NCBI GenBank assembly: GCA_028101545.1
Contig: JAOHKZ010000013.1
Coordinates: forward strand, 1-55,915
Reading direction: 5' to 3'
DNA: 55,915 nucleotides
Origin: Opitutales bacterium
GTDB lineage: Bacteria; Verrucomicrobiota; Verrucomicrobiia; Opitutales; Seribacteraceae
Shown one piece after another: positions 4,030-55,915 of this stretch. The position numbers and the translations under genes were made by a program. Below the pieces are notes generated by a model that was not told the origin of the DNA, searched no databases, and was given only the letters and a program-made list of their open reading frames with translations. Within the stretch, counting starts at the first letter, position 1, and every line of letters begins with the position of its first letter.

Positions 4030-5553
4030 TTATTTTAAAAGTCTGGGAGCGGTAAAGCCACACTCTCTGGCATTCTTAAGTTCTTTCTGTAACTCAGCCA
4101 CCTTTTCGGGGAATTTCTTCGCCAGATTATTTCGCTGACTAATATCCTTGGCGTAATTGTAAAGCTCGACCGAGTCATCATCATCCGCTGGATAATTTCG
4201 TTTTTCCTCCCACGGCTTTCTCCGTCCGGAATGATATCCTGACTTCCCTGCGATCAAATTCCATTCGCCAACACGGATCGCCCAGGCATCCTCTCTTGTA
4301 TTGTGGACATGGACTGTACGGGGAGTCTTACTTCTTCCATGAAGCAAGGGAAGTATGTCATGAGAATCTTCCGCGGCATTATCTGGTAGTTCGTACCCAA
4401 GTGAAGAGGCAATTGTACTCATGAAATCAATTTGGGAAACCAACTTGTTACAGGTACTTCCCGCCTTGGTGACCCCTGGCCACTTAATTATAAAAGGCAC
4501 ATGATGACCCCCTTCGTAAATATCCCTTTTTAATCCACGAAACGGCTCAGCTGACCAGTGGTCAAAAGTTTCATCACGCTTATATGCATAACCCTCAGGA
4601 CCATTATCCGCGGTAAAAATGACGATTGTATTATCTGCCTGCCCACTCTGTTTAAGTGCCTTGAGAATTCGGCCACAAGCATCATCTGTCTCATAAACAA
4701 AATCCCCATAAGGCCCCGCACCTGACTTACCATCAAATTCGTCATTTGGAATGATTGGTGCATGGGGGGAAGGAAAAGCAAAATAAAGAAAAAATGGGTT
4801 ATCATCTTTTGCCTGCTTCTTCACATACTCCACCGCTTTTTGAGTGGTGGTGGGAATGTTTTCATAAGGATCCCAACCCGAAAACATTGGGCCCGGTCGG
4901 CATTCCCATCCGCCCTCTTTGATTTTTTTCCATTTGGAGGTGTCCATCATTGTATCCGGGATATCGACCACCTTGTCGTTTTCTATCCAGCAATAGGGAG
5001 GGAAATTTATCACAGTATCACCAAAGTAATAATCAAAGCCATGCGCCAAGGGGCCATCGGGTATCGACTTGGACCAATCGAACGCATCAGGACCATAACC
5101 AGATTTCCTTCCTTGCTTAATGGGTTTGGCATTGGGTTTCTTAATCGCATCCCAGTCCCATCCGAGATGCCACTTGCCTATGGCTGCGGTGTTGTATCCA
5201 CATTCCTTTAACATCTCTGGCAGGGTAAGCCTATCTGCATCAAAAGCGGACTCCCCAAATGCGTTTACGATACCATGAAATTTCCTCCAATGATAGCGGC
5301 CGGTCAGTAAGGCATACCTACTGGGAGTACAAATCCCGGAAGAGGAATGACCATCGGTGAAAATCATGCCCTCCTTGCCCAATTTTTCAAGATGCGGGGT
5401 GGGAATCTTGGATTTGGGATTCAGTATTTTGAGATCGCCATAGCCGAGATCATCCGCATACAAAATTAAAATATTAGGTTTCTTTTCCGCTGAAAATAAA
5501 GAAGGCCACAGCCCCACAAGCAAACCTATTGCAGTTAAAAAGTTTTTGTACAT
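4030..5553 (-). CDS. Secreted arylsulfatase-like sulfatase (family S1)
   Basis: 507 residues, the only minus-strand gene in the window. Signal peptide about residues 1-21, metal site [10 protein letters not shown], formylglycine motif CTPSR with FGly at Cys75, and [14 protein letters not shown] is preceded by AAAGGAG just upstream, supporting this start. It is a clear paralogue of the sulfatase at 52620-54110: both share the [11 protein letters not shown] stretch, [13 protein letters not shown] and [10 protein letters not shown], in the same order. It is transcribed divergently from the sulfatase at 5642, with 88 bp between the starts. Confidence 0.94.
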
Positions 5554-14091: not shown

Positions 14092-14114
14092 GCTGATTTT
14101 GCTCGAAAAATCCG

Positions 14115-14138
14115 TAAGGAAATAAAGATCGCTTACAT
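14115..14138 (+). promoter_or_regulatory. TAAGGAAA-N10-TTACAT motif, copy 1
   Basis: TAAGGAAA at 14115-14122 and TTACAT at 14133-14138, 10 nt apart, ending 14 nt before the ATG at 14153. The same two-part motif with the same spacing occurs at 16039 and 22023. It probably is a promoter or an activator/sigma-factor site of this organism. Confidence 0.5.
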
Positions 14139-14152
14139 CTTTTTTGTGTGAA

Positions 14153-14491
14153 ATGAAAAACGAAGAAGCCATGGCCAATTTCATCCTCAAAGAGGCTGAA
14201 ACCAAAGAGTCCCTCAGAAAAAGAATGAGCGAATCTGCATCGGAATATTATACGGGGCGTTACTTATTTGGTCTGATTACATCCCTGCTTCTTCTCGGCA
14301 TGCTTATTTATATCTGTATAAATGGCGATCTACCATTTTGGGGCGTTCTTTCAATCGCAATCGCTCTGGAAGCACTCATGGAATCTAAAAGAAATTCAGG
14401 GCGTGTAGATGCAATGATTAAACTTTCTGAATTGGATTCTAATGGAACAAACGCAGCTATCAAAGCGAGTCCAAACCAACAAGACACTTAA
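14153..14491 (+). CDS. Small membrane protein of unknown function
   Basis: 112 residues from the ATG at 14153 (a TTG three codons earlier is in frame but less likely). N-terminal 35 residues are charged and helical; two membrane segments follow (about 41-60, LFGLITSLLLLGMLIYICI, and about 65-80, PFWGVLSIAIALEAL). A cytoplasmic tail ends the protein. I do not recognise a family. It is preceded by the TAAGGAAA-N10-TTACAT motif and followed by a sulfatase gene 54 bp downstream, so it may be co-transcribed with it or stand alone. Confidence 0.7.
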   Translation: MKNEEAMANFILKEAETKESLRKRMSESASEYYTGRYLFGLITSLLLLGMLIYICINGDLPFWGVLSIAIALEALMESKRNSGRVDAMIKLSELDSNGTNAAIKASPNQQDT

Positions 14492-14545
14492 CTCAAGACC
14501 ACGATTGAATTCGTGGGTTCGTAATCACGACCCTTTACAATATTT

Positions 14546-15946
14546 ATGAATATCCGCCCTCCAAAGCTTCTGCTCCCATCCGTATTTATTCTATGTGCCC
14601 TTGGCACTGCCTTTTCTGCAAAACCAAATGTGATCCTGATGATGGCTGACGATCTGGCCAACGAGGATTTATCCTGTTATGGCAGTACACGCATTAAGAC
14701 GCCGTGCCTCGATCAACTCGCAAAGGAAGGAATTAAGCTTACAAATTACTATGCGGGCAACCCTGTCTGCTCACCATCTCGCATGGCATTACTGTCGGGA
14801 TCCTACCCGGCACGAATCGGGTGGCGTCGTGGGGTGCTGGGTTACGGTTTCCCTGGCAAGTCTGGAATGTCGCCTAGGGTACACACCATTGCCGAAGCCT
14901 TTCGCGATGCTGGTTACCGCACTGCAATGTCAGGTAAGTGGCATTTAGGAAATGTGAATATGCGTCCAGAAGATCAGGGTTTCGATTCGGTCTACTGCAT
15001 ATATATGTCCAACAACCAAAATCGAGACATGTATCGCAACGGCAAGCTTGTTCAGAAAAAGTGGGATAACCGCCTGCTCACTGAAACTTTCTCGCAAGAG
15101 GTCATTCGAGTAATTAAGGAGAAAAGTAACAAACCCTTCTTCCTCTATGTGCCTTGGAGTGCACCACACTTCCCCGCCGACCCGCATCCCGACTGGCATG
15201 GGAACTCAGGCGAAAATAAGTCCGGAAAATATACTGATGTGGTGAACGAACTTGACACACGCGTTGGGCAAATCCTCAGCACACTTAAGGATACTGGCAA
15301 AGAAAAGAACACCATCGTGATCTTCACTTCCGACAACGGTCGTCAACCAGGTCAGCAGGGTCCTAACGACAACCCCTCATTTACGGGTCATAAGTGGCAG
15401 TCTTTGGAGGGTGGCACTCGGGTTCCATTGATAATTCGTTACCCCTCAAAGATTCAAGCAAACAAAACGAACAACTCCCTCGTTAGTGCAATCGATCTCT
15501 ATCCAACTCTAGCCTCGGTTTGCGATGTAAAAATCGAACTTCCAAAAGACGCCCAGAGGATTGACGGCGTCGATGTTTGGAAAAATTTATCCGAACCAGA
15601 TACAAAGTCTGCACGAACCGAGTTAATCTACTGGCACGGAATGGGGCAGGCAACCGCCATCCGGAAGGGCAATTGGAAACTCTTCTTCAACTATGGCGTT
15701 AACAAGCATGACAGTGACCCTGTGCTATCCGATGGCTATTCTCTTCACAACCTTAAAGACGATCCACTGGAAGCCAATAACCTAGCAAAGAACCACCCAG
15801 AAAAGGTCGAGGATTTACTTAAAAGAGCCAAGATACTGTTAACTGATATCTATGCCGACCAACTTCCACTAGGCACTTACCCGGGCGTAATCCTTTCTGC
15901 TCCACCGTTTAAGGCTTCAGATGTCTGGGGGAAATGGATCAAATAG
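14546..15946 (+). CDS. Secreted sulfatase (family S1)
   Basis: 466 residues, signal peptide about 1-24 (cleaved near AFSA). Metal site MMADDLANED, formylglycine motif CSPSR with FGly at Cys75, GKWHLG at about residue 131, and FTSDNGRQPG at the second metal site. The order of motifs and the short length fit classical arylsulfatase-like enzymes. The stretch before ATG reads TTTACAATATTTATG, with no Shine-Dalgarno sequence, similar to the other putative near-leaderless starts. It ends 125 bp before the next sulfatase gene. Confidence 0.92.
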   Translation: MNIRPPKLLLPSVFILCALGTAFSAKPNVILMMADDLANEDLSCYGSTRIKTPCLDQLAKEGIKLTNYYAGNPVCSPSRMALLSGSYPARIGWRRGVLGYGFPGKSGMSPRVHTIAEAFRDAGYRTAMSGKWHLGNVNMRPEDQGFDSVYCIYMSNNQNRDMYRNGKLVQKKWDNRLLTETFSQEVIRVIKEKSNKPFFLYVPWSAPHFPADPHPDWHGNSGENKSGKYTDVVNELDTRVGQILSTLKDTGKEKNTIVIFTSDNGRQPGQQGPNDNPSFTGHKWQSLEGGTRVPLIIRYPSKIQANKTNNSLVSAIDLYPTLASVCDVKIELPKDAQRIDGVDVWKNLSEPDTKSARTELIYWHGMGQATAIRKGNWKLFFNYGVNKHDSDPVLSDGYSLHNLKDDPLEANNLAKNHPEKVEDLLKRAKILLTDIYADQLPLGTYPGVILSAPPFKASDVWGKWIK

Positions 15947-16038
15947 CCACCCAACTTTATGTAAAACGAGAAGATGATATTCATCAAGACATAGAATTAG
16001 AAAATAAAAAATAAAACAGAATTCCTTCGGTAATTCCA

Positions 16039-16062
16039 TAAGGAAATAATTTTCGATTACAT
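16039..16062 (+). promoter_or_regulatory. TAAGGAAA-N10-TTACAT motif, copy 2
   Basis: TAAGGAAA at 16039-16046 and TTACAT at 16057-16062, ending 9 nt before the ATG at 16072. Both halves and the 10-nt spacing match the copies at 14115 and 22023. The motif is followed by TACAAC, which resembles a -10 box but lies only 3 nt from ATG. Confidence 0.5.
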
Positions 16063-16071
16063 TACAACTTT

Positions 16072-17724
16072 ATGAATTTTTGCTCTCAAAAAATTATCTA
16101 TCATTTCATTTTTTCCCTTGGTTTGCTTAACGCTGCCTTTTCTGCAAAACCCAATGTCGTTTTTATCATGGCCGACGATCTGGGCTGGGCAGATACCACT
16201 CTTTATGGCCACACGGCTCTTTATGAAACCCCGAATCTGGAACGTCTAGCTAAACGGGGAATGCTTTTTGAACGGGCTTACACCGCCAGCCCTCTCTGCT
16301 CCCCTACCCGTTCGGCCGTGCTTACCGGACTTCACCCGGCACGAACCGGACTGACCGCACCCACCTGCCACCTTGCAGGCGAACCAATCCTACGACCCAG
16401 TCTCAAGCTTAATACACCCGCCCACCACAAATTACTCTCGCTCACAAAAGTGAACCGGCTCGATACAAACTACCCGAACATGGCGAAAACTCTTAAGCAA
16501 GCCGGCTATCATACGGCTCACTTTGGAAAATGGCACCTGGGTAGGAGCCCCTTCACCGCACTTGATCATGGCTTTGATGTCGACATCCCCAATTGGTTTG
16601 GACCCGGACCGGCGGGTAGTTATGTGGCACCATGGAAATTCCCTGATTTCAAGGAGGCTTACCCGGGCGAACATATTGAAGACCGAATGGCAGATGAGAT
16701 TGATACCTACCTGGAAAAACGGGCCAAAGATAAAAAACCTTTCTATTTAAATTACTGGCAATTCTCCGTACACGGTCCATTCAATGCAAAAGCCGACTAT
16801 ATTGAATCCTACAAAGACAAAGTGAACCCTAACGATGCCCAAAAATCTCCGACCTATGCGGCCATGGTCAAGTCACTGGATGACAATGTTGGTCGGGTAC
16901 TCGATAAATTAGACGAGCTTAAACTCAGTAAAAACACCCTGATCTTTTTCTATTCAGACAATGGTGGGAATATGTACAACCAGGTGGACGGCACCACCCC
17001 GACCTCCAACCGGCCATTACGCGGGGGAAAAGGAAATAACTGGGATGGGGGCGTACGGGTTCCGTGTATTGCGGTTTGGCCGGAACATATTGAGGAAGAG
17101 TCCAAATCGAGAGAACTGGTAACTTCCACTGATTTTTACCCAACCATCCTGGATCTGCTGGGAATCCCAAAAAAAGAAAGCCAGACCTTTGACGGAATTT
17201 CAATCCGTCTCGCCCTGGAAGGTAAGCCCATGGACAATCGATGCATCTTCACCTATTTTCCCCATGCCACCAAGGTGCCCGATACCCTTCCGAACAGTGC
17301 CGCCATTTATGATGATGAATGGAAACTCATACGTTTGCTTCACAATGCACCCAACGGTGATCACGAACATTGGTTATTCCACCTAAAAAAAGACATCGGT
17401 GAAAGAAATGAGGTCTCAAAGAAGTATCCAAAAAAGGTTGCGGAGCTTGGCAGGGAACTGGACCAATTTCTCGCGAGTACTGGGGCCATCTATCCGACCC
17501 CAAACCCCTATTACAATCCGAATCATGCATCCACTCCCAAACCAAAAAAGACCTACTCCACCGCCCAGTTCAAAAAGATGGATAAAAATCAGGACGGTTT
17601 CATCACCCTCAAGGAATACATCGGCAATCCGGATGGCCGGAATGTACCCGCACTGAAAAAGCAATTCAGTCGACGCGATGGCAACGGCGATGTTAAGCTC
17701 ACTCTCGCAGAATTAAACAAGTAA
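16072..17724 (+). CDS. Secreted sulfatase with C-terminal EF-hands
   Basis: 550 residues, signal peptide about 1-25. Metal site IMADDLGWAD, formylglycine motif CSPTR with FGly at Cys76, GKWHLG, and YSDNGGNMYN. After the catalytic part (to about residue 490) comes a linker and a pair of EF-hand calcium loops, DKNQDGFITLKE and DGNGDVKLTLAE, ending the protein. The EF-hand pair may stabilise the enzyme or mediate attachment to a surface or partner in a calcium-dependent way, as dockerin-like modules do; that role is inferred. First gene of an apparent four-gene operon reaching 21233, with 19 bp to the next gene. Confidence 0.93.
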   Translation: MNFCSQKIIYHFIFSLGLLNAAFSAKPNVVFIMADDLGWADTTLYGHTALYETPNLERLAKRGMLFERAYTASPLCSPTRSAVLTGLHPARTGLTAPTCHLAGEPILRPSLKLNTPAHHKLLSLTKVNRLDTNYPNMAKTLKQAGYHTAHFGKWHLGRSPFTALDHGFDVDIPNWFGPGPAGSYVAPWKFPDFKEAYPGEHIEDRMADEIDTYLEKRAKDKKPFYLNYWQFSVHGPFNAKADYIESYKDKVNPNDAQKSPTYAAMVKSLDDNVGRVLDKLDELKLSKNTLIFFYSDNGGNMYNQVDGTTPTSNRPLRGGKGNNWDGGVRVPCIAVWPEHIEEESKSRELVTSTDFYPTILDLLGIPKKESQTFDGISIRLALEGKPMDNRCIFTYFPHATKVPDTLPNSAAIYDDEWKLIRLLHNAPNGDHEHWLFHLKKDIGERNEVSKKYPKKVAELGRELDQFLASTGAIYPTPNPYYNPNHASTPKPKKTYSTAQFKKMDKNQDGFITLKEYIGNPDGRNVPALKKQFSRRDGNGDVKLTLAELNK

Positions 17725-17743
17725 ACAACCCTCAGCCCTGAAC

Positions 17744-19540
17744 ATGAAACTTTACAGCCTTCTTTTATTCTTAATCACCGTTCTTGTCTCGCACGCGAAA
17801 AAGCCCAACTTTGTAATCATCTTCAATGACGATATGGGCTATGCCGATCTTGGCTGCTTCGGTGCGGATAAGATTAAAACCCCACGCGTTGATCAAATGG
17901 CGAAGGAAGGCCGAAAGTTCACAAGTTTCTATGTTGCCTCTGCAGTCTGCTCTGCGTCACGTGCCGCCCTGCTCACCGGATGCTACCCAATGAGGGTCGG
18001 AGTGCGGGGAGTGTTTTTCCCAAACCGCGGATCTCATGGATTGGAACCCAGGCACTTCACCATTGCCGAACTACTCAAAAGTGCGGGATACAAAACCCTT
18101 GCAGCCGGCAAGTGGCATCTCGGGGACGAACCCAAATTTCTCCCCACCAATCAGGGATTCGATACTTTTTACGGGGTTCCCTACAGCAACGATATGTATC
18201 CGGCCGAGAATATGAAATATGCCAAGGACTGCCTCTATCTCGAAGGCATGTCACAGGAGACAATCAAAAAAGCCTTTGCCGATGCCAAACCCGGACATCA
18301 ACCCAAGCTTAAGGACAAGGTTCCCCTAATGCGTGATGAGGAATGCATTGAATTTCCGCTCGATCAACGGACCATTACCCGGCGAATCGCTGACGAAAGC
18401 ATCCTGTTCATCAAGGAAAGCGTGAAGGACAAGAAGCCCTTTTTCGTCTACCTCGCCAACCCCATGCCCCACACGCCCCTTTTCGTTTCCAAGGACTTCG
18501 AAGGAAAGAGTGCCGGCGGGATCTATGGCGATGTGATCGAGGAAATCGACTACAACACTGGCCGTGTCCTTGACGCACTCAAGGAACATGGCGTTGATGA
18601 TAATACCCTGGTTATCTTCACCTCCGATAACGGCCCCTGGCTGATCAAGGGGGATCACGGAGGATCCGCCAAACCCCTTCGCGACGGCAAAGGTTCGAGT
18701 TACGAAGGAGGCCAACGCGTACCCTGCGTCATGCGCTGGCCGGGTAAAATTCCTGCGGGGACTGAGTGCAATGAAGTGGCTACGGCCATGGATATGCTCC
18801 CAACCTTTTCCGCCATCTCGGGAATTAGACTCCCTGCCGATCTGAAGCTTCAACCGGATGGCCATAATATTGAAAACCTGATCATGGGTGGTCCTGAAGA
18901 AAAAACTCCCTACACAACCTTTTATTACTCCAATAATTCCGGAGTCCGTAGCGGACCCTGGAAATATCGTGCCGGACGCAAATACGGAAACTGGGCATTC
19001 CCCCGTGGAGAAATGCCAAAAGACAACCCACAGGAAAAACAGCTCTTCCATCTGATTAAGGATATTGGAGAAACCAGGAATGTAATAGATCAGCACCCGG
19101 AGATCGCGGAGCGTCTGGTTGCCTTGATTGATCAAAGCCCCAACCATACCATGAAACTCTTTAAGACAGGTAAGCCCAAGGGGAAACGGTATGAATTTGA
19201 GAAGGGCAAAGTCTCCGGTGGTGCCACTGCCGGCGGCAAGCATGTCGGAGGCATGCAAAACATGGGTGCATCCATCACCATCGAAGTGGATGGTGGTAAA
19301 AAAGGGGGTGAGTTTCTCATGACACTGGGCTATGCCTGCGGAGGAAATGCCAGCGTCGCCCTGCTCGTAAACGGCGAGAAGCAAACCGACCTGCTCCTTC
19401 CAACAACCGGCGGATGGAGCACCCATAAGGCGGCCAAGGTATATCTGGACTTAAAACCCGGAAAAAATCAACTCCTGTTCAGGAGCCAGAAAAAAGGCGG
19501 CGTTAACCTCGACTATTTTGATCTGAAGCACAATAAATAA
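17744..19540 (+). CDS. Secreted sulfatase with C-terminal carbohydrate-binding-like domain
   Basis: 598 residues, signal peptide about 1-18. Metal site IFNDDMGYAD, formylglycine motif CSASR (the CxAxR form) with FGly at Cys69, GKWHLGDEPK, and FTSDNGPWLI. The last ~120 residues form a separate beta-sandwich with a glycine-rich start (VSGGATAGGKHVGGM), a VALLVNGEK strand and a closing VNLDYFDL motif, the pattern of CBM6/35-like galactose-binding folds. This module probably tethers the enzyme to its polysaccharide. Second gene of the 16072-21233 operon. Confidence 0.92.
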   Translation: MKLYSLLLFLITVLVSHAKKPNFVIIFNDDMGYADLGCFGADKIKTPRVDQMAKEGRKFTSFYVASAVCSASRAALLTGCYPMRVGVRGVFFPNRGSHGLEPRHFTIAELLKSAGYKTLAAGKWHLGDEPKFLPTNQGFDTFYGVPYSNDMYPAENMKYAKDCLYLEGMSQETIKKAFADAKPGHQPKLKDKVPLMRDEECIEFPLDQRTITRRIADESILFIKESVKDKKPFFVYLANPMPHTPLFVSKDFEGKSAGGIYGDVIEEIDYNTGRVLDALKEHGVDDNTLVIFTSDNGPWLIKGDHGGSAKPLRDGKGSSYEGGQRVPCVMRWPGKIPAGTECNEVATAMDMLPTFSAISGIRLPADLKLQPDGHNIENLIMGGPEEKTPYTTFYYSNNSGVRSGPWKYRAGRKYGNWAFPRGEMPKDNPQEKQLFHLIKDIGETRNVIDQHPEIAERLVALIDQSPNHTMKLFKTGKPKGKRYEFEKGKVSGGATAGGKHVGGMQNMGASITIEVDGGKKGGEFLMTLGYACGGNASVALLVNGEKQTDLLLPTTGGWSTHKAAKVYLDLKPGKNQLLFRSQKKGGVNLDYFDLKHNK

Positions 19541-38857: not shown

Positions 38858-40336
38858 ATGAGTCTGAAAACAATAATGATAGGAGCATTGCTCCTTTTTT
38901 GCGCAGGGTTTGCTGGTGCTGAAAACCGACCGAATCAACATCCGAACAATGTGGTCGTTATTTTCTGCGACGACTTGGGCTACGGTGAACTGCCTGTCTA
39001 CCGTAAGCTTTACAAAGGAGCCAATGATATTCAGACGGCGATAGGTTCTTTCACCCCAAATATCGACCAGTTGGCGGAAGAAGGTGTTGTCTGTACCCGG
39101 GCTTATGGTAATAACACATGCTCGCCATCAAGAATGTCTCTCTTAAGTGGAAAGTGGTCGACACGTAAGATCAGTTTGGGCGAGCACAAGTTGATCGGGA
39201 GATATATGCGTCAGCGTGGCCTTAAGACAGCTCACTTTGGGAAATATCACCATCCCGTTGAGAAGGAGATCACTAAACCCTACCACAAGGAATTCCTCGA
39301 GTTTGATGAATTCCTTGGCTTCGAAGCAGTAACTAATTATTTCCGCAAAGCTGGCGAAAAAGTAGCTCCGAGGAAAAATTCCCCGATCACTTACCGGGTT
39401 GGGAGTAAAACGATCGACTTTCAGTTCAAGAAAGAGGGAGAGTATCTTACAGACACTCTAACCGATCTCTCCGTCGACTTCATTGAGCGATGCGCTGAGG
39501 ATAAGAAGCCTTTTTTTGTATACATCCCGTTTAACGCACCACACGCTCCCATACAAGCAAAGCCCGAAGATCTAAAAACTCTGTTCCCGAAAGGTAAGAT
39601 TGGAAAAACTGGGAAGATCAATAATCGCGAACGTATTATGGCGATGGTCTATGCAGTGGACCGCGGAGTTGGTAGGATTATCAAAACACTGGAGAAAACT
39701 GGACAGCTAGATAACACCCTCATCATCTTTACCGGCGATAATGGTGGCGAACAAAACCTGTCTCTAACCTATCCTATGCACGGTTTCAAGCACGAGCCCT
39801 TTGACGGTGGAATCCGAGTACCCCATATAGTGTGGTCAAAACCCCTGCAGAAATCCGAATCGAAACCCGACTACTATGATGGTCTCGTCTCGCTCTGTGA
39901 CATTCTGCCTACATCCTTGAAGTATGTGGATCCGTCAACAGAACTTGAGCCCCTGAAAAGCGACGGTGCCGATATCATGCCTTACCTTATGGGCAAGGAG
40001 CCACCGTTAATGGGTCGTGCCTATATCAACTTGCGCACCCTCAGCCAAAAGTCCAACACTTGGAAAGGGGGGCGGGACACCAAGGGTAAAACCATAGGCT
40101 CCTGTATAGCTCTTCTCGTTGATGATTGTAAGGTTATGAGGCTGGCTCAGGACGAGAAGAAACAGGAAGAGTATTCGTATGCATTCCATCATCTACCGAA
40201 TATGATTGGTAAGGATCGGCCCAAAGCGGAACTGAAAGAATCCTACTACGAGAGCACCGACAATAATCACCCGGAGAAGAAGAAAGCGATGATCGAACAA
40301 CTTGAAAAGCTTCTTGAAGGAACAAATCTCGACTGA
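38858..40336 (+). CDS. Secreted sulfatase (family S1)
   Basis: 492 residues, signal peptide about 1-21. Metal site IFCDDLGYGE, formylglycine motif CSPSR with FGly at Cys88, GKYHH replacing GKWHL, and FTGDNGGEQN. The start is supported by CAGGAG placed 6 nt before the ATG. The C-terminal part is shorter in recognisable motifs than in the other sulfatases. Its neighbours are the EF-hand protein and a scramblase-like protein. Substrate unknown. Confidence 0.9.
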   Translation: MSLKTIMIGALLLFCAGFAGAENRPNQHPNNVVVIFCDDLGYGELPVYRKLYKGANDIQTAIGSFTPNIDQLAEEGVVCTRAYGNNTCSPSRMSLLSGKWSTRKISLGEHKLIGRYMRQRGLKTAHFGKYHHPVEKEITKPYHKEFLEFDEFLGFEAVTNYFRKAGEKVAPRKNSPITYRVGSKTIDFQFKKEGEYLTDTLTDLSVDFIERCAEDKKPFFVYIPFNAPHAPIQAKPEDLKTLFPKGKIGKTGKINNRERIMAMVYAVDRGVGRIIKTLEKTGQLDNTLIIFTGDNGGEQNLSLTYPMHGFKHEPFDGGIRVPHIVWSKPLQKSESKPDYYDGLVSLCDILPTSLKYVDPSTELEPLKSDGADIMPYLMGKEPPLMGRAYINLRTLSQKSNTWKGGRDTKGKTIGSCIALLVDDCKVMRLAQDEKKQEEYSYAFHHLPNMIGKDRPKAELKESYYESTDNNHPEKKKAMIEQLEKLLEGTNLD

Positions 40337-45955: not shown

Positions 45956-46594
45956 ATGCCTTTTCGAAACTTTATACTTTTTTCAAACATTCAATCTTTC
46001 GAGATTGCACTCGGAATCGTTCCACCTTCCGAAAACCAAGGGTTAGCGGAAAAGCTTATTCTGCCCTTGGTTGCAAAAGGAGATGAGACCGCAATGAAAA
46101 GGTGCATTGATTCATATGGTCCGCTTGTTTGGAGTATCGTCTGCCGCCGAATTAGCGAAAGAGTGGATGCAGAGGAAACATGCCAGGAAATCTTCACAGA
46201 AGTCTGGCGTGTTGCGGGTAGGTTTGATTCCAAAGTATCCAAAGAATCAACTTTCATTGGAATGATCGCCCGGAGACGCTCGATTGACTGGCAACGCAAA
46301 CAGAATCGACTTCCCGCATTGGCCAACTTAGACAGCCTACCCGAACTTTCTACTCCATCTACAAACAATCTTCATTCGATTGATCGTTCTGAGCTTTGGA
46401 ATATCCTCAAAGATCTCCCCTCGGATACATTAAACTTGTTCTCTTTACACTTTGAAAAAGGATTAACCCACGATGAGATTGCTCGGCAAACAAAGTTGCC
46501 TATTGGTACTGTTAAAACGAAATTACGCCGTGGACTGATTGAAGCTCGCAAACTACTCAAAGAATTCAACCACGCGAGAGGAGTTGCCAAATGA
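45956..46594 (+). CDS. ECF sigma factor, SigK-like
   Basis: 212 residues. Region 2 has SERVDAEETCQEIFTEVWRVAGRFD, and region 4 has FSLHFEKGLTHDEIARQTKLP followed by GTVKTKLRRGL. The DAEE-QEIF-WR-GRFD pattern and the presence of an RskA-type partner match the SigK group (ECF19). N-terminal ~35 residues before region 2 are longer than usual, so the true start may be further in. Its stop overlaps the anti-sigma start (ATGA), and GAGGAG lies 7 nt before that start. Confidence 0.87.
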   Translation: MPFRNFILFSNIQSFEIALGIVPPSENQGLAEKLILPLVAKGDETAMKRCIDSYGPLVWSIVCRRISERVDAEETCQEIFTEVWRVAGRFDSKVSKESTFIGMIARRRSIDWQRKQNRLPALANLDSLPELSTPSTNNLHSIDRSELWNILKDLPSDTLNLFSLHFEKGLTHDEIARQTKLPIGTVKTKLRRGLIEARKLLKEFNHARGVAK

Positions 46595-47517
46595 GCATGG
46601 AAAAAACATTAGCTCGATTCGAAGAATTAGATGCCGGTAGAGTGCTCGGTGATCTTACTTCCGAAGAAACTTCGGAGTGGCAAATTCTGGTAACTGACAT
46701 AGAGGATATTCATTCCATCGAGCTTGAACTTCTTGCCACTGAATTGGAACTTAAACATGTACAACCCTGCGATCTTTCCAGCTCCCTCTCAAATAAACTT
46801 GCTGACACGATTCCTGCTTTTTCAAATAAAAATATGAATCAACCTGCTGCCCAAATTATTTCTATTCTGCCTTGGTTGGGCTGGGCAGCGGCGGCATGCC
46901 TAATTATTTTCTTCAATCTCCCAACTGGAGATGATATCCAGAAAATTTCTGCTGAATTGTCTCAGGCGAATGCGGAACTTTCAGATAATGAAAAAACCAT
47001 TACTGATCTGCAATCCGTCAAACAAGAGTTGGCTGAACTTAATGAAAAATTGAGTGGTGAATTAACAACTGAGTTAGGAAAAATCGAAGCATTGAATACC
47101 CAAATCGCAAAGTTAACTGAGAAACTTCCTCTATTACAAAAATTTGAATCTCTCATTCAAGATGAACCGGCCACAAAGAGACTTGAATTTGCATCAGCAA
47201 GCGATCCTTACATAGGTCTTTCCGGTGAAGTGATTTGGAATGATGAAAAGCAGGAAGGCTATATGTCCCTGAAGAATCTTGCGGTAAATGATCCGACCAA
47301 AAACCAATACCAGCTATGGATTGTGGATCCTGAGCGCGATGAACTACCCGTGGATGGAGGGGTGTTTGACATTACCGAAAAGGATGGTAAGTCGATCATT
47401 CCTATTCGCAATGCATTAGCCATTAATAAACCTGTCGCATTTGTGATCACCCTTGAGCAACCCGGTGGTGTGGTTAAGTCCAAACAGGAAGTAGTGGTTG
47501 CTTTGGCGAAGTCCTGA
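46591..47517 (+). CDS. RskA-type anti-sigma factor
   Basis: 308 residues. Cytoplasmic N-terminal ~85 residues including the RVLGDLTSEE stretch of anti-sigma domains, one membrane segment (about 92-112, PWLGWAAAACLIIFF), then a coiled coil of about 75 residues (SAELSQANAELSDNEKTI in part), and a C-terminal RskA domain (KNQYQLWIVDPERDELPVDGGVFD, AFVITLEQPGGV). The topology allows sigma release by membrane proteolysis, as known for RskA/SigK. Adjacent fasciclin genes mirror the mycobacterial SigK regulon. Confidence 0.87.
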   Translation: MSMEKTLARFEELDAGRVLGDLTSEETSEWQILVTDIEDIHSIELELLATELELKHVQPCDLSSSLSNKLADTIPAFSNKNMNQPAAQIISILPWLGWAAAACLIIFFNLPTGDDIQKISAELSQANAELSDNEKTITDLQSVKQELAELNEKLSGELTTELGKIEALNTQIAKLTEKLPLLQKFESLIQDEPATKRLEFASASDPYIGLSGEVIWNDEKQEGYMSLKNLAVNDPTKNQYQLWIVDPERDELPVDGGVFDITEKDGKSIIPIRNALAINKPVAFVITLEQPGGVVKSKQEVVVALAKS

Positions 47518-47601: not shown

Positions 47602-48471
47602 ATGAAAAGGATCTCACAGATTCTGGTCAAGTTACTGATCTTAGGAATCCTCAATATTTATTTATTGGCAAATCAGGTGCCATTGAAAGACTTGATAACC
47701 CCCGTCATGACGGAAGAAAAACCCGCACCGGGCAAAAGGGTGCGTCAGGTCGGGCATGAGTACAAGGGCACGCAGGTCTATCATACCCTCTACCTGCCGA
47801 CCGATTGGCAAAAAGGAAAGACATATCCCGTGCTCGTCGAGTATACTGGGAACAAGTTTCCCGCTTGTGGGTCAACCGGAGAAGTAATGGGAGCCAACTT
47901 GGGCTATGGACTCTCGGGAGGCAAAGGTTTCATCTGGGTATCTATGCCGTACATTCAGAAGGGTAAAAAAGAAAACACCGTCACTTGGTGGGGTGACCGT
48001 CAGGCCACCATCGATTACTGTAAGGTAAACTTGCCTCGAATCTGCAAGGAATTTGGAGGTGATATGGAAAACCTTTTCATCTGTGGCTTTTCACGTGGTG
48101 CGATTGCCTGCAGTTATATTGGGTTGGCGGATGACGAAATCGCTTCCTTCTGGAAAGGAATGATCGCCCATGATCATTTCGATGGTCAAAATAAATGGGG
48201 ATATCCTGAAAGTGACCGAACCTCGGCACTCAAACGCTTGGCTCGATTGCAAGGACGCCCGGTTCTTGTATGCGGAAACAAAAATGATTATCTCAAGGAT
48301 CATCCCAAGCTCGGGACTTTCACCTTTCTTCCCATCCCCGTGAGCGAAATCTTCGATATTCCCGAAGGTCTTGTCATCCATCGGCACACGGACCTTTGGG
48401 CTCATCGGCACAGCCCGACCCGCCAGATTGCTAGAGGCTGGCTGTTAGATCAAGTATCAGTTAAAAAATAA
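47602..48471 (+). CDS. Secreted alpha/beta-hydrolase-like protein
   Basis: 289 residues, signal peptide about 1-24. An alpha/beta fold is suggested by YHTLYLPTDWQKGKTYPVLV, the nucleophile-like GFSRGA near residue 175, and a late His in HTDLWAHRHS. The family resembles secreted esterase/peptidase-like proteins that accompany sulfatases; the acid residue is not certain (candidate in VCGNKNDY). Substrate unknown. It ends 61 bp before the next sulfatase gene, with a short hairpin between. Confidence 0.75.
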   Translation: MKRISQILVKLLILGILNIYLLANQVPLKDLITPVMTEEKPAPGKRVRQVGHEYKGTQVYHTLYLPTDWQKGKTYPVLVEYTGNKFPACGSTGEVMGANLGYGLSGGKGFIWVSMPYIQKGKKENTVTWWGDRQATIDYCKVNLPRICKEFGGDMENLFICGFSRGAIACSYIGLADDEIASFWKGMIAHDHFDGQNKWGYPESDRTSALKRLARLQGRPVLVCGNKNDYLKDHPKLGTFTFLPIPVSEIFDIPEGLVIHRHTDLWAHRHSPTRQIARGWLLDQVSVKK

Positions 48472-48532: not shown

Positions 48533-49906
48533 ATGAATTACCGATTTAATCTATTCTTCGCTACTTTCTTATTTCTTCACGCCACGGTTTTTGCCAAAGA
48601 AAATCGCCCCAATATCATACTCATCATGGCAGATGACATGGGCTACGAAGCCATCTCTTCCAACGGAAGTGAATCGTGCAAATCACCCAACCTGGATAAA
48701 TTAGCCGAACAGGGTGTGCGCTTCACCAATTGTTTTTCCAATCCAATCTGTACGCCTTCAAGGGCAAAGATAATGACAGGGCAGTACAATGTAAGAAACT
48801 ATGTGAAGTTTGGCATGCTTGACCGCGGACAAACAACCTTTGCCCATCAACTCAAAGATGCTGGTTATGCCACCTGTATCGCCGGTAAATGGCAACTGGG
48901 CAATCAGCCCGACTCACCCCAGCATTTCGGTTTTGAAAAATCCTGTCTTTGGCAACACACGCGCTCGGGTCGCTCCAATGAAAACGGGAAACGAATCGAT
49001 CGCCGCTTCGTCAATCCAATGCTTGAGTTCAACGGCAAACAAAAGGACTACACGAACGGTGAATACGGTCCCAAGGTATGCACAGACTTTATCTGTGACT
49101 TTATCGAGGAGAACAAAAAGAATCCTTTCCTCGTCTATTTCCCAATGATTCTCACCCATTGTCCCTTCGATCCAACGCCCGACTCCAGTGACTGGGATCC
49201 CAAAAGATTGGGTTCAACAACCTACAAAGGTGATAAAGATGATCCGCAACGGCACTTCCGTGATATGGTTGCCTATGCGGACAAAATGGTTGGCCAGATC
49301 GTAAAGCAGCTTGAAAAGTCAGGAGTTCGTGAAAACACCGTCCTAATCTTCACGGGCGACAACGGAACCGACAAGCCCATCGTAACACCATGGAACGGCA
49401 CCGAAGTAGTCGGAGGTAAAGGATCCATGAGTGATACCGGCACCCGCGTTCCCTTAATTGTCAACTGGCCTGCTGGCATCAAAAAGCCCGGTCGGATAAC
49501 TGACGAACTAGTTGAGTTCACAGACATGATGCCCACCCTGTGTGAAATCTCCGGTGCCAGCCTGCCGAAGAATCACCCTGCCGATGGAGCAAGTATCGTC
49601 CCCGTCCTCAGCAACAAGAAGAATGTTCGAAAAAAAGATTGGATCTACATCTGGTACCGGGATCAGGTCATGGTCCGTAATAAAAAATATTCTCTTCTCG
49701 CCAAACATAACGGAAGTAATGCCAGGCTCACCCGCTACAAAGGCCAGTTCGATGGCAAGGAATTGGATAACCAAAAGCTGACCAAAGCAGAAAATACGAT
49801 TAAAAAAGAATTTGAAGGAATCCTTTCTGAGATGGCTAAGACCCGTCTTTCCACTGCCAGCAAGGAAGGCAGAGAAATGGGGCTAAAGAATAAATCCAAC
49901 CGGTAA
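48533..49906 (+). CDS. Secreted sulfatase (family S1), GKWQ variant
   Basis: 457 residues, signal peptide about 1-21. Metal site IMADDMGYEA, formylglycine motif CTPSR with FGly at Cys73, GKWQLG (residues 118-123) with Gln in place of the sulfate-contacting His, and FTGDNGTDKP. The CLWQHT stretch after GKWQLG recurs in a subfamily I recall from planctomycetes, so the change is likely a subfamily trait. It is 18 bp upstream of the CHTTR sulfatase, so the two are probably co-transcribed. Confidence 0.9.
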   Translation: MNYRFNLFFATFLFLHATVFAKENRPNIILIMADDMGYEAISSNGSESCKSPNLDKLAEQGVRFTNCFSNPICTPSRAKIMTGQYNVRNYVKFGMLDRGQTTFAHQLKDAGYATCIAGKWQLGNQPDSPQHFGFEKSCLWQHTRSGRSNENGKRIDRRFVNPMLEFNGKQKDYTNGEYGPKVCTDFICDFIEENKKNPFLVYFPMILTHCPFDPTPDSSDWDPKRLGSTTYKGDKDDPQRHFRDMVAYADKMVGQIVKQLEKSGVRENTVLIFTGDNGTDKPIVTPWNGTEVVGGKGSMSDTGTRVPLIVNWPAGIKKPGRITDELVEFTDMMPTLCEISGASLPKNHPADGASIVPVLSNKKNVRKKDWIYIWYRDQVMVRNKKYSLLAKHNGSNARLTRYKGQFDGKELDNQKLTKAENTIKKEFEGILSEMAKTRLSTASKEGREMGLKNKSNR

Positions 49907-49924
49907 GACTTACCATTTCGTGCA

Positions 49925-51439
49925 ATGAAACTACTTTCCTTTTTTCTCTCTCTTTTCTTTGCGACATCTGCGGCCTGGTCAAAACCTAACCGCACACGTC
50001 CCAACTTTATCCTCATTATGGTGGATGATATGGGCTACTCAGACCTTGGCTGCTATGGTGGTGAAGTCAAAACCCCAAACATTGATAAACTGGCAAAAAA
50101 TGGCCTGAGGTTTACTCAGTTTTATAACACGGCCAAGTGCCATACCACACGAGCCGAACTTCTCACCGGCAACTACGCATACTCGATTGGGGACAACCAC
50201 ATGGAACATGGTGCCACTTTTGGTGAGGTGCTGCGACCCATCGGTTATCGAACCCTGATCTCAGGCAAGTGGCATCAGGTACCTCTTCCCACCACCCGTG
50301 GTTTTGACCGCTACTACGGACTGGCCGATGGATGCAGTAACTTCTTTAATCCCGGCGTTGAAGCACGTCCGGGTGAAGGCCTACCAGGAAGAAAACGATC
50401 ATCCCTAAGACGTTGGGCCATCGAGGACAAGGTGATCATGGGCTACACCAGCCCTGACAAGAAGTTCTATCACACCGACGCTTTTACTGATTACGCAATC
50501 GATCGTCTCGATGAATACAAGGACGAAGACAGACCCTTCGTCCTTTACCTTCCCTATACTGCTCCCCACTACCCTCTTCATGCCTGGCCTGAAGATATCG
50601 CCAAGTACCGGGGTAAATACAAAATCGGGTGGGATAAGATTCGTGAGCAGCGTTTCAAACGGATGAATGAAATGGGAATCATCGGCCCAAATCATAAGCT
50701 CACTCCAAGGGCTTCCAAAGCATGGGATGACTTAACCGACGAGCAAAAGGATGCAGAGGATCTTAAAATGGCAGTCTACGCAGCCATGATCGACCGGGTA
50801 GACCAAAACCTTGGTCGTCTTTTTGCCAAGGTCAAGAAACTGGGAGAGTGGGAAAACACCCTTATTATGTTTCTGACTGACAACGGTGCCTGTCCCGAAC
50901 AACCGAACACCACTCCGGATATTCCACCTGGACCCGTAGAGAGTTACCGAACGGTCTCCGTAGGCTGGGCCAACGCCAGCAACACTCCCTACCGCAAATT
51001 TAAGTCAACTGATTACGAAGGTGGCATTCGTACTCCTTTCATCGCTCATTGGCCGGGTGTTATCAAACCTGGCATGACCAATCAGGTCGGTCATATCATC
51101 GATGTCTCCGCAACCTTTAGAGACATTACCGGAGCGAAGTATCCCAAGAAAATTCTGGGCAACAAGACCAAGCCCCCGCTCGGCAAGTCTCTACTTCCCA
51201 TCTTCCATGGGAAAGAGCGTGAGCCTCACCAGGAAATATACTGGCATTTCAGCCGGGCTAATGCTGTCAGGCAGGGTGACCTGAAAGTGGTGAGAGCCGG
51301 TAAGGCATGGGAACTCTACGACCTGAATGCCGACCCTACGGAGATAGACAACCTGGCCGAAGTAAAACCGGATAAAACCGCCGAACTCGCTAAGATGTGG
51401 GAAGACTGGAAACTGGATTACCAAAAGAAACCAAAGTAA
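49925..51439 (+). CDS. Secreted sulfatase-like protein with CHTTR motif
   Basis: 504 residues, signal peptide about 1-19. Metal site IMVDDMGYSD, GKWHQ, and LTDNGACPEQ are as expected, but the formylglycine motif reads CHTTR (Cys72-Arg76): Thr stands at the position where Pro or Ala is usual (CxPxR or CxAxR). Whether Cys72 is converted is open; I recall related CHSSR forms in this group, so the protein may still be active or use unmodified Cys. It sits between a GKWQ sulfatase and a sialidase gene with short gaps, so it belongs to the same operon. Confidence 0.88.
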   Translation: MKLLSFFLSLFFATSAAWSKPNRTRPNFILIMVDDMGYSDLGCYGGEVKTPNIDKLAKNGLRFTQFYNTAKCHTTRAELLTGNYAYSIGDNHMEHGATFGEVLRPIGYRTLISGKWHQVPLPTTRGFDRYYGLADGCSNFFNPGVEARPGEGLPGRKRSSLRRWAIEDKVIMGYTSPDKKFYHTDAFTDYAIDRLDEYKDEDRPFVLYLPYTAPHYPLHAWPEDIAKYRGKYKIGWDKIREQRFKRMNEMGIIGPNHKLTPRASKAWDDLTDEQKDAEDLKMAVYAAMIDRVDQNLGRLFAKVKKLGEWENTLIMFLTDNGACPEQPNTTPDIPPGPVESYRTVSVGWANASNTPYRKFKSTDYEGGIRTPFIAHWPGVIKPGMTNQVGHIIDVSATFRDITGAKYPKKILGNKTKPPLGKSLLPIFHGKEREPHQEIYWHFSRANAVRQGDLKVVRAGKAWELYDLNADPTEIDNLAEVKPDKTAELAKMWEDWKLDYQKKPK

Positions 51440-51453
51440 AGGCACTGAGTTAC

Positions 51454-52620
51454 TTGAGAAAATTCCTTCCTTTTTTCATGGGGGCATTCCTCCTGTTTGG
51501 TTCGGTTCATGGTACAGAAAAACAGGGGCTCAAAATCCCAACTGTCTCAAAAGTACACCGTAAGGTAATTTTCCCACAGGGGGACGGAGGATCCAAATAC
51601 TTTCGGATCCCCGCAATCATCACCGCAAAAAACGGCGACTTGATTGCCGTTATCGATGCCCGTCGTAATACCACCCGTGATCTTCAGCACACTCGTAATA
51701 TCGACATCGCCTACAAAATCAGCACGGACAATGGTGATAATTGGAGTGAGATTAAATTCATGACAGACTTTCCTGATGGGGAGGTTGGTTCAGACGCATC
51801 ACTTATATTAGACAGGACAACTGGTAAAATCTTCTGCTTCTACAACTATCTCGACCACGACACAGAGTTCAATAAATTAAGACCTTCAAGAGTTGCGGTA
51901 AATTATCGATTTTATTTACAGACAAGCGAGGACCATGGGAAGACCTGGTCCAAACCCATCGATATTCGTGATCAAGTACTCCCTGCATCTGTAACCAAGA
52001 GAGACTTTGTGTTCGTCACCTCAGGAAGGGGAATTCAGACACGCTCAGGAACCCTTGTGCACACAATTGTACATGTCGGCAAAGGGGGTTACCTATTCGG
52101 CAGTGATGATCAAGGTAAAACCTGGGCAGCGTTACGACATGCATCTCTTTTCTCTCCGGCCAACGAGTCCAAAATCCTCGAACTTTCTGATGGAATATGG
52201 ATGATTAATGCGAGATTAAATGGATCGGGCCACCGTTATATTCTCCGATCGAATGATAACGGAAAGAATTGGTCAGGAAGGAAAGATAGCAGTCTGCCAG
52301 ATCCCGGATGTAATGCAGAACCTATTCTCTACACGAGCAAGTTGGACGGTTATAAGAAAGATCGTCTTCTTTTTGTTAATGCACACAGTTCAAAAGGGCG
52401 AAAGAATCTGGTTCTTTCCCTCAGCTATGACAGTGGACAAACCTGGGCACATAAAAAATGTATTGAAAAAGGGCCTTCTGGTTATTCATCGATTACGATC
52501 TGTAAAAATGGAGATATTGGTATTTTCTTCGAAAACGGAACCAAAATGACCTTCGTACGGGTAACCCTGAAAGATTTAACCGATGGAAAAGACAAACTAA
52601 GCAAACCCTACCAAATGTAA
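51454..52620 (+). CDS. Secreted GH33-type exo-sialidase
   Basis: 388 residues if started at the TTG at 51454, which gives the signal peptide ([16 protein letters not shown]); an ATG at 51397 would overlap the previous gene by 43 bp. FRIP motif at about residue 50, five Asp boxes ([40 protein letters not shown]), the Glu in NESKILEL, and the nucleophile-type Tyr in SGYSSIT. This is the sialidase beta-propeller. It releases sialic acid or a related nonulosonic acid from glycans. Its stop (TAA) overlaps the next ATG by one base (TAATG), so it is coupled to the following sulfatase. Confidence 0.88.
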
Positions 52621-54110
52621 TGAAAATACTTTTACCCGCCCTAATAATTATCTGCTCAACCCTTTATGGGAAACTCCCCAATGTGGTCATTCTCTACGCC
52701 GACGATATGGGTGTTGCCGATGTTTCATACGGCGATCCTGCAGCCAAGATTCAGACACCACATCTGGACAAATTGGCATCACTGGGTATGACCTTCACCG
52801 ATGGGCACAGTTCTTCAGGCATTTGTACGCCAAGTAGGTTCGCATTGTTGACCGGACAACACCACTGGCGCCGATTTCACGGTATCGTGGGAGCCTTTGG
52901 CGGAACTGTCTTCGAGCCTGAGGACTTCACTATCGCCAAGATGTTTAAGAAAAAGGGCTATCGTACGGGTTGTTTTGGAAAGTGGCACCTGGGTTGGGAC
53001 TTTGATGCCATTCGTAAACCGGGTGCAAAAAAAGGAGATTCCCGTGCCGAGTCCTATGATTGGACAAAACGCTTTCCTGATGGTCCGCTAGATCAGGGCT
53101 TCGACTACTATTTTGGAGACGGAACTATCAACTTCCCTCCGTATTGCTGGATCGAAGGAGATCGCTTCGTTACCATTCCCACTAAGCCTGTCATCAAATC
53201 TACGCCACTTGCGGGTGGGGGCTCTTTTCGTCCTGGACCGATGGCCGAAAGTTGGAACCCATACGACATCCTGCCTACCATCACCCAAAAGACCGTCGAG
53301 TGGATTTCGAAGCAGGAAAAAGATCAACCCTTCTTCGCTTACCTCGCTTTTAATTCCCCTCACTATCCGATCGTCCCGAACAAGCCTTATCATGGAAAAT
53401 CGCAAGCTGGTTACTACGGCGACTTCGTCATCGAAACCGATGCCATGGTGGGCAAGGTGCTGAACGCCTTGAAAAAACACGGCTTTGCCGACAACACCCT
53501 AGTTATCTTCTCAGCTGACAATGGTGCTGAAACGCATGCTTTTGAAAGACTACAGGATTTTAAGCAATGGAGTTCCGGTAAATACCGTGGAGTAAAACGG
53601 GATATCTACGAAGGGGGGCACCGTGTTCCCTTCATTGTTAAATGGCCTGGTAAGATTAAAAAAGGAGTAGTTTCCGATGAGGTGGTAAGTCAGGTCGACT
53701 TTGCCGCTACCTTCGCCAAGATCATAAATTATCCTCTTGGCACAAAAGAGGCTATCGACAGTTACAACCTGCTCCCAGTCCTCGAAGGAAAGAAATATTC
53801 TAAACCTCTAAGAGTTGCCACGGTGCAGAACACCTCTGCGAAAAAGTTCGCACTTCGACAAGGAGACTGGGTACTTATTGATGGACCAACAGGTTCGGCC
53901 AAGAAAGAGAGCTCTGCCTACCTTAACCATTTTAATTTGGATCCTTACGGACAAGGTTTGTTATTTAACCTGAAGGAAGATCCGCGTCAGTCTAACAATC
54001 TCTATGACAAGTTTCCTGATCGGGTTACAAAAAATGAGGTCTTTACTCAAGGAATATCTATCTGGCAAACCCTGTGCTCCGCAGTAAGGACGCACCAATC
54101 TACTAAATGA
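52620..54110 (+). CDS. Secreted arylsulfatase-like sulfatase (family S1)
   Basis: 496 residues, signal peptide about 1-18. Metal site [10 protein letters not shown], formylglycine motif CTPSR with FGly at Cys69, [11 protein letters not shown], and [10 protein letters not shown]. Paralogue of the minus-strand gene at 4030-5553 (shared [29 protein letters not shown]). Translation is coupled to the sialidase gene by TAATG, and the next gene follows after 7 bp, so sialidase, sulfatase and the glycoside hydrolase form one operon. Confidence 0.93.
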
Positions 54111-54117
54111 ATATAAA

Positions 54118-55915
54118 ATGAAATATATTCTTAAGATAATCCCTCTATTTTTTTTTCATTTGCTGTCTGAATTTGTGGTCAATGGGAATGACTTCATAAC
54201 TCTCAAAGAAATTGATGGTAGGTCATGGCTTGTAAGGCCAAACGGGCAGCCTTTTTTCGCACATGGAATAACCCATGTAAGTAACAAAGACGCCAAACTA
54301 AACTACCAGAAGTTTTCACAAGCCTGTAAGAGTCTTGGTTTTAATGCTTATGGATATGGGTGCCCTGAAACACTCCGGAAGGATATGCCCTTTATCGAAA
54401 GTTGGAATCATCTGGTTCCAATTTCATATTATCGTGGGAAAAACGGGGTACAATTCCTTGATGTTTTCGATCCTAAGGTTCAGAAAAAACTTGAATACGG
54501 GGTTAAGGCGAAATGCTTAAGCAGCCGGAAAAACCCAAACACCATCGGCTATTGCTGGACGGACCTAGGATCATGGGCTTTGGAGAATCCATCCGGAAAA
54601 AACTGGGTGGAGTTCATTCGTCAACTACCTCAGAATACTCCTGGTCTAAAAGCATATCAAAATTTCATTACAAACTGGGAAGGAAGCTCAGAAAAGCAGC
54701 GTGATCTGGCCTTCCTTCGAATTATTGCCAAGGAATATTTCAAAGTAGTCGGCAATGCCCAACGCAAATATGCCCCTAGTCACTTAGTCTTTGGAGAACG
54801 TTTTGGAATAAATTCACTAAATATTTACAGAACAATTGTTCCTGAGGTTCTTGAGGAAATGCTTCCATATGTGGATGCCATTGCGATTCAACCACCATTT
54901 CAATCGAAATTTCCAAAAGAAGATTTCGATAATATTTTTCAACTAACCCAAAAACCTATTCTAATCTGCGATTTTGCAATTCGATTTAAAGAAGAAGGCA
55001 AAGACATTCGTAGTTGGAAACCTGAAAATGATTCAATTGCTGCAGGCAAAGCATATGTCCAATACATCAAAGATGCTTTCGAAACCGATTATATAATCGG
55101 TTCTTTTTGGTGTAACCCCGTCGACACGCCCAAAGGTTTCTCCAAGCAAGGGGTCAAACAAGGGTTCTTTGGGGAAGGGCTCACCGAACGGCCGGGTCTT
55201 CATCAGCAGGTTCGAGAATTAAATCATCATATCGTAGCAAGGACTCCGAAAACACTCCTAGCCAACAACGCGAAACTGGAAAAGCTTGCCTCGGGATACG
55301 AAACTGTGGAAGGACCGCTCTATGACGGGAAGGGCCATCTTCTCTTCACTGACATTACCAACCAACATATTTGGAAACTAAACCTGAAGACCCTTGATAC
55401 CACTCTCTTTCGAGACGAGACAGGCGGTGCCAATGGGCTCGCCTTTGACTCACAGGGACGATTGCTGATGTGCAAGCAAAAGGAGAAGAGCCTTACCCGC
55501 CTCGAGAAGGATGGGACGGAAACCGTCCTATTAAAGCCGACGAGGATTGGGGCAAAAAAGATGATTTACCCTGTGGGAGTAAACGATGTGGTAGTCGATC
55601 GCAAGGGACGGATCTATGTTACTGTGCCAGCTGCGGGATCCATATACCTTCTCGACTCCGATGGTAAAAATCCGCGGCAAGTCATCAGCGGACTGAAGGG
55701 GCCGAACGGCTTGATGCTATCACCGGATGAACAAACACTCTATGTATCCGAATACAAGGAGCAGAAGCTATATGCATTTGATGTCGATCCCAAAACCGGA
55801 AACCCCTCCGATCAAAGACTTTTCACCCAAGTCGAAATACCCAGCGAGTACGGATGTGACGGCATGACAGTAGACCATCTCGGCAACCTCTATTGTTCCG
55901 GTCCATACGCCGTGC
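54118..55915 (+). CDS. Agarase-like glycoside hydrolase fused to SMP-30/gluconolactonase (3' end outside window)
   Basis: At least 599 residues, open to the right edge. Signal peptide about 1-22. Residues about 25-375 look like an agarase-like glycoside hydrolase: WLVRPNGQPFFAHGITHVS, NPNTIGYCWTDLGSW, HLVFGERFG, VDAIAIQPPF and ILICDFAIRF, in the order of a (beta/alpha)8 enzyme. From about residue 380 an SMP-30/gluconolactonase propeller follows: VEGPLYDG (metal-binding Glu), GGANGLAFD, VGVNDVVVD, GPNGLMLSPDE. One polypeptide with a glycan-cleaving and a lactone-hydrolysing module is unusual. It starts 7 bp after the sulfatase stop. I checked the frame from the start to the edge and met no stop. 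Confidence 0.8.
   Translation, partial: MKYILKIIPLFFFHLLSEFVVNGNDFITLKEIDGRSWLVRPNGQPFFAHGITHVSNKDAKLNYQKFSQACKSLGFNAYGYGCPETLRKDMPFIESWNHLVPISYYRGKNGVQFLDVFDPKVQKKLEYGVKAKCLSSRKNPNTIGYCWTDLGSWALENPSGKNWVEFIRQLPQNTPGLKAYQNFITNWEGSSEKQRDLAFLRIIAKEYFKVVGNAQRKYAPSHLVFGERFGINSLNIYRTIVPEVLEEMLPYVDAIAIQPPFQSKFPKEDFDNIFQLTQKPILICDFAIRFKEEGKDIRSWKPENDSIAAGKAYVQYIKDAFETDYIIGSFWCNPVDTPKGFSKQGVKQGFFGEGLTERPGLHQQVRELNHHIVARTPKTLLANNAKLEKLASGYETVEGPLYDGKGHLLFTDITNQHIWKLNLKTLDTTLFRDETGGANGLAFDSQGRLLMCKQKEKSLTRLEKDGTETVLLKPTRIGAKKMIYPVGVNDVVVDRKGRIYVTVPAAGSIYLLDSDGKNPRQVISGLKGPNGLMLSPDEQTLYVSEYKEQKLYAFDVDPKTGNPSDQRLFTQVEIPSEYGCDGMTVDHLGNLYCSGPYAV

Follow-up and report, generated by a model that had tools for sequence, protein, structure and literature searches.

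A GH50-like barrel and an SMP-30 propeller in one open frame at the end of an Opitutales contig

The open frame and its gene cluster

The window, the whole stretch of 55,915 nucleotides that was analysed, spans the entire contig C5 of a draft genome that is 57% complete, so the window edge is also an assembly end. At this edge a single ATG-started frame runs on the forward strand from 54118 to 55914 with no stop in 599 codons (Table 1). The original prediction of one frame with two domains, a catalytic-type barrel followed by an SMP-30 propeller, was confirmed, and the stop or frameshift between residues 370 and 385 that it had named as contrary evidence was absent from the assembled sequence. 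The chance that 220 codons stay open at the base composition of the SMP-30 part is about 3e-5, and protein homologues exist for both halves. The propeller is seen to residue 599; judged from the corresponding genes of the relatives G016, G011 and G023, it should continue for about 50 more residues past the contig end. This missing C-terminus was not found elsewhere in the same assembly (57% complete), and a search of the same genome for the continuing contig, using an 865-residue DUF-type neighbour of the cluster, gave a best match of only 47% identity.

As had been claimed for the neighbourhood, the fusion gene directly follows three sulfatases and a BNR-type sialidase on one strand, with which it may form an operon. 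A sigma-70-family gene and an RskA-like anti-sigma factor gene stand just ahead of the cluster and may regulate it. With the pattern that we take to mark the formylglycine-type sulfatase motif, the motif scan found nine such genes in 56 kb (at 4030-5553, 12475-19540, 38858-40336, 48533-51439 and 52620-54110), three of which were also run against Pfam.

Comparison with relatives showed that the slot behind the third sulfatase is occupied in different ways. In the clusters of G022, G001 and G021, which have no sialidase between the second and third sulfatase, the slot holds a separate glycoside hydrolase (GH) gene, while in the sialidase-bearing clusters of G011 and G016 it holds an SMP-30 gene, in G016 behind one extra sulfatase. 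The cluster of the fusion gene, with its sialidase, has both GH and SMP-30 in the slot. Since one or the other occupies the same slot in relatives, both halves appear to belong to the locus.

Table 1. Features of the fusion gene and of the cluster upstream of it.
Feature	Position	Strand	Basis or remark
Sigma-70-family and RskA-like anti-sigma factor genes	45956..47517	+	just upstream of the cluster
289-residue protein	47602..48471	+	no Pfam or NCBIfam match; also adjoins the cluster in G011 (84% over 236 residues)
Sulfatase, CTPSR motif	48533..49906	+	domain match, motif scan
Sulfatase, CHTTR motif	49925..51439	+	domain match, motif scan
BNR-type sialidase	51397..52620	+	listed with a GTG start; the first ATG is at 51478
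Sulfatase, CTPSR motif	52620..54110	+	ends 7 bases ahead of the fusion ATG
GH50-like::SMP-30 fusion gene	54118..55915	+	599 codons visible, 3' end cut off by contig end
Probable signal peptide, residues 1-24	54118..54189	+	by eye from sequence comparison
GH50-type (beta/alpha)8 barrel, residues 26-378	54193..55251	+	profile search, alignment, predicted fold
D149 codon, end of barrel strand 4, at or beside GH50 acid/base site	54562..54564	+	Asn533/Glu534 of Aga50D, numbering of PMC11079163
D285 codon, end of barrel strand 7, at GH50 nucleophile site	54970..54972	+	Glu695 of Aga50D, same numbering
Mosaic breakpoint range	55113..55161	+	nine of ten parent pairs
Linker, residues 379-397	55252..55308	+	low model confidence; joint alignment
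SMP-30/gluconolactonase (SGL) propeller, residues 398-593	55309..55896	+	Pfam SGL; predicted metal ligands E398, N489, N530, D581

The GH50-like barrel and the SMP-30 propeller

The N-terminal half matched no Pfam family up to E 1. A profile built from the 29 rows of the GH alignment A3 retrieved five PDB sequences, all of GH50 type (best E 2e-29), and the predicted fold of the barrel was also nearest to GH50, at 17-20% identity. The nearest known proteins are Aga50D (4BQ2-4BQ5), AgWH50C (5Z6P), PfGH50B (6XJ9) and BpGH50 (5T3B). In the structure model of the fusion protein the barrel was confident, the propeller less so, and the linker was loose. Alignment A3 left out the broken G006 copy (L015) and three weaker matches without a locus, those of G067 and G360 and the second of G298; the structure alignment A4 left out L055 and 12 of the 29 rows of A3.

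The active site of Aga50D, as given in PMC11079163, includes the nucleophile Glu695, the proton donor Glu534, and Asn533, Phe742, Arg752 and Glu757. Placed on the fusion protein by a hand count with a chain offset of 43, Glu695 corresponded to D285, Glu534 to L150, Asn533 to D149 and Phe742 to C332, while Arg752 and Glu757 fell on K339 and Q344, both in a variable stretch. Compared with Aga50D, the barrel therefore has L150 and D285 in place of Glu534 and Glu695, and it lacks the long N-terminal part. The nucleophile position was Asp in all 29 rows and the acid/base position was L, M, T, I or Y; against BpGH50 the aligner placed the strand-4 Asp differently, but whatever the register, the strand-4 motif WTDLGSW offers no Glu. 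Only four acidic residues, D115, D149, D253 and D285, were invariant across the 29 rows, together with the non-acidic C332, K347, Q348 and G349. A true agarase identity for the N-terminal half was rejected because both GH50 catalytic glutamates are absent. Of the term "agarase-like" in the original prediction, the fold thus held and the agarase was not supported: by its sequence, the barrel is GH50-like in fold and departs from GH50 in its catalytic residues.

The same residues recurred more widely. In a sample of 387 genomes of the phylum, drawn from a larger group, 29 genomes matched the barrel profile at E 1e-20, among which weaker matches may be ordinary GH50. The Asp pair was examined in seven further loci among these matched genomes (L067-L073), and all nine of their matches had Asp at 149 and 285, Cys at 332 and no acid/base Glu; KQG was absent from one of the nine. 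A second GH50-like member with the Asp/Asp pair lies in the same genome as the fusion gene (L036, G000:C47:5005-5988; 33% identity).

The C-terminal half was assigned to SMP-30 by Pfam SGL, which matched residues 398-593 over profile positions 3-199 of 246 (E 2e-31) with a score of 109.9 bits, above the curated cut-off of 26.3; Arylesterase, SBBP and Str_synth gave weaker matches inside the same half. Alignment to the exported gluconolactonase 3DR2 showed E398, N489, N530 and D581 at the four expected ligand positions, which we take to be those of the metal ligands of the SMP-30 family. The propeller shares the SGL match and these four positions with the SMP-30/gluconolactonase/LRE family, and it differs from that family in standing behind a GH50-like barrel, in having no signal peptide of its own and in losing its C-terminus at the contig end. 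Of the six loci in named records that matched this half, five were Opitutia, Opitutales or other Verrucomicrobiota (79-85% identity), and the sixth was an acidobacterial record at 33%. Among viral contigs, 307 pattern matches to the SMP-30 half were obtained and none was confirmed.

Relatives, GH leftovers and the mosaic breakpoint

Searches were made in 42 genomes of the family at E 1e-40, in 372 genomes of the order, drawn from a larger group, at E 1e-30 with at most three candidates per genome scored, and in the phylum sample described above. The complete fusion was found once among the 42 family genomes and once among the 372 order genomes, each time as the frame of the window itself; no other complete fusion was found in the 41 other family or 371 other order genomes. 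Twelve other family genomes had the GH half as a gene by itself, at 63% identity or more, and G006 had a broken copy, the pieces of which lie in separate frames, one with an internal stop (L015, G006:C131). The SMP-30 half occurred at 79% identity or more in five genomes, G016, G011, G024, G023 and G036. The G036 gene is cut at its 5' end by a contig end inside the propeller, so that its fused or unfused state cannot be judged, and the contig of G024 ends just ahead of the leftover described below. The assembly of the fusion gene (57% complete) yielded no other GH above 33% identity and no other SMP-30 copy above 39%. Homologues that always encode the halves as separate genes had been named as evidence against a fusion; this is nearly what the searches gave, but three separate SMP-30 genes (G016, G011 and G024) retain short GH leftovers.

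The G016 gene, which lies inside a 118-kb contig, consists of a signal peptide, PGLHQQVPKLN, a 15-residue stretch, AKLEKL and the propeller. Its leftover aligned to the joint of the fusion gene without gaps, with 12 of 27 residues and 51 of 81 bases identical, a match that none of 200,000 shuffles equalled; the joint is in frame, and the linker length at the joint is equal in the two genes. In the G011 and G024 genes, LITIKEID stands directly before AKLEKL and resembles FITLKEID, the first barrel strand of the fusion protein (0 of 2000 shuffles matched the GH first strand as well, either way). The corresponding stretch of G023 alone did not exceed chance (992 and 1165 of 2000 shuffles), and the GHs of G001 and G008 scored above the fusion GH against it (21 and 19 versus 18). 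When the leftovers were scored against 25 of the 29 A3 proteins (L040-L043 left out), the fusion GH was the top match for G011 (score 31, next 23) and tied with G053 for the top score of 48 for G016; for the leftover DNA it led narrowly (17 of 24 bases versus 16, and 27 of 33 versus 26). The G016 joint sits in CCGGG, a weak signal of five bases that the two presumed parents share, on the 5' side in G024 and on the 3' side in the fusion gene, and which would be compatible with deletion through short repeats. The leftovers in relatives indicate that a GH-SMP-30 joint existed earlier. The simplest reading of these sequences is that the GH was removed from an ancestral gene of signal peptide, GH and SMP-30 on two or more occasions, with differing end points.

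The fusion gene itself is not uniform. Compared with the GH DNA of G059, it was 79-91% identical in blocks over gene positions 75-990 and then fell to 71% and 46%, while its GC content along the same blocks rose from 0.36 to 0.56 and 0.48. In these last blocks other pairs fell less (G059-G022 to 77% and 72%, G059-G001 to 73% and 65%); a last-block drop was also seen in other pairs (as in G034-G053, from 83% to 61%), and some stand-alone GHs show a GC rise toward the end as well (G024, from 0.46 to 0.59). A breakpoint scan with ten chosen parent pairs (2 x 5), in which the permutations treat sites as independent, was equalled by none of 2000 permutations for seven pairs and by 1, 2 and 5 of 2000 for the other three. 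The break fell within gene positions 995-1043 for nine of the ten pairs and at 821 for the remaining one, which combined G022 with G024. On the 5' side of the break the gene is like the stand-alone low-GC GH genes, and on the 3' side it has higher GC and another ancestry. By eye, its signal peptide is like that of the stand-alone GH of G001 and unlike those of the stand-alone SMP-30 genes. From this ancestry switch and the signal peptide, the gene most likely arose by recombination between a stand-alone GH body and a piece made up of GH tail, linker and SMP-30, or else it is a technical chimera. Because of the different signal peptide, it would not simply be the ancestor of the leftover-bearing SMP-30 genes, and plain vertical inheritance of an intact ancestral fusion was rejected as the sole account on the breakpoint and the differing signal peptide.

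Origin and possible role of the fusion

Since short remnants of this join occur in relatives, the fusion gene is quite likely to be real. The reading that we prefer, with a probability of about 0.6, is a genuine secreted two-domain protein in a cluster for the degradation of sulfated glycans, with an ancestral joint, later losses of the barrel and a recombinant present copy. In an ancestor within the verrucomicrobial family, an in-frame join would have placed an SMP-30 propeller after a complete GH50-like barrel, and several relatives would then have lost the barrel through internal deletion, keeping the short leftovers. The fusion copy would have taken its barrel body from a low-GC stand-alone GH lineage and its barrel tail, linker and propeller from the older joint.

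A rival to this reading is a chimeric contig end. The slot would then truly hold a GH by itself, with or without a separate SMP-30 gene after it, and a faulty amplification or assembly step within the conserved GH tail would have linked this GH to a leftover-bearing SMP-30 gene. The switch in ancestry and GC about 0.8 kb from the contig end fits such an error, as does the lack of a second complete fusion in the 42 family and 372 order genomes. In G024 and G036, too, the contig breaks off within the SMP-30 gene, which suggests that the region is hard to assemble, and two relatives bear AH-numbers, presumably single-cell genome names, a type of material in which amplification chimeras occur. We nevertheless consider a chimera unlikely, since synteny predicts an SMP-30 half for a sialidase-bearing cluster, the assembly, though 57% complete, offers no second close GH or SMP-30 as a source, and the leftover strand of G011 and G024 is closer to the fusion GH than to the 24 other GHs. 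The in-frame joint with the linker length of G016 also argues against it, as does the tail at and past the breakpoint, which keeps the invariant C332, K347, Q348 and G349. If the contig end were chimeric after all, it would caution that, in conserved enzyme families, what looks like a fusion can arise at the end of a contig. The fusion could also be real but decaying or transient, the outcome of a recent local deletion or recombination whose product has no combined function. The single occurrence among the examined genomes, and the relatives that lost the barrel and kept the propeller, would suit this account; it is made improbable by the 599 open codons, by the intact set of four expected propeller ligands and invariant barrel residues, and by the identical joint length in G016.

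The open frame, the identity of the domains, the leftovers, the mosaic structure and the invariant Asp residues are observed; for the genuine two-domain protein, we infer secretion, catalysis, substrate and coupling as follows. The sulfatases and the sialidase would first trim a sulfated glycan, and the barrel would then bind a sugar and probably act on it, with Asp149 and Asp285 in the role that two Glu residues usually play; the protein may be an enzyme throughout or a binding domain paired with an enzyme. The metal-dependent propeller would open a lactone or an ester, in the same product or in the one that follows, and the flexible linker would hold both domains near the substrate. A bolder version is that the barrel represents an undescribed GH50-fold family with the Asp/Asp pair, Cys332 and KQG, acting on a sulfated glycan and coupled to lactone opening in one secreted chain, in a slot where the barrel comes and goes through recombination and deletion, so that a GH, a GH-lactonase or a lactonase is present depending on the lineage; we regard this combined proposal as doubtful.

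Other multidomain proteins with this propeller were found in the same family. An SMP-30 propeller is joined to a BD-FAE esterase in L021 (735-2462, +; 575 aa) and to a cupredoxin in L018 (1372-2733, +); both differ from the present gene in having the propeller N-terminal and another partner. The esterase fusion sits in the same cluster of relatives, with probable counterparts, by SMP-30 match, at L022, L023, L026 and L030. These proteins suggest that the propeller is a mobile partner and that the fusion with a GH50-like barrel is a new form of this habit. Judged by titles, no description of a GH50-type and SMP-30 combination was found in the open-access literature, and the available part of PMC8857213 mentions neither lactonase nor GH50.

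Taken as a whole, the original interpretation was partly supported: the domain order and the neighbours were right, while the coupling of glycan cleavage to the opening of an aldonolactone stands as a hypothesis. If real, the gene would represent a domain combination for which the open-access search found no description, and the leftovers in relatives would show the making and breaking of a fusion within one gene slot. Moreover, the barrel suggests that Verrucomicrobiota have a GH50-related family in which the standard catalytic glutamates are missing and whose chemistry is testable.
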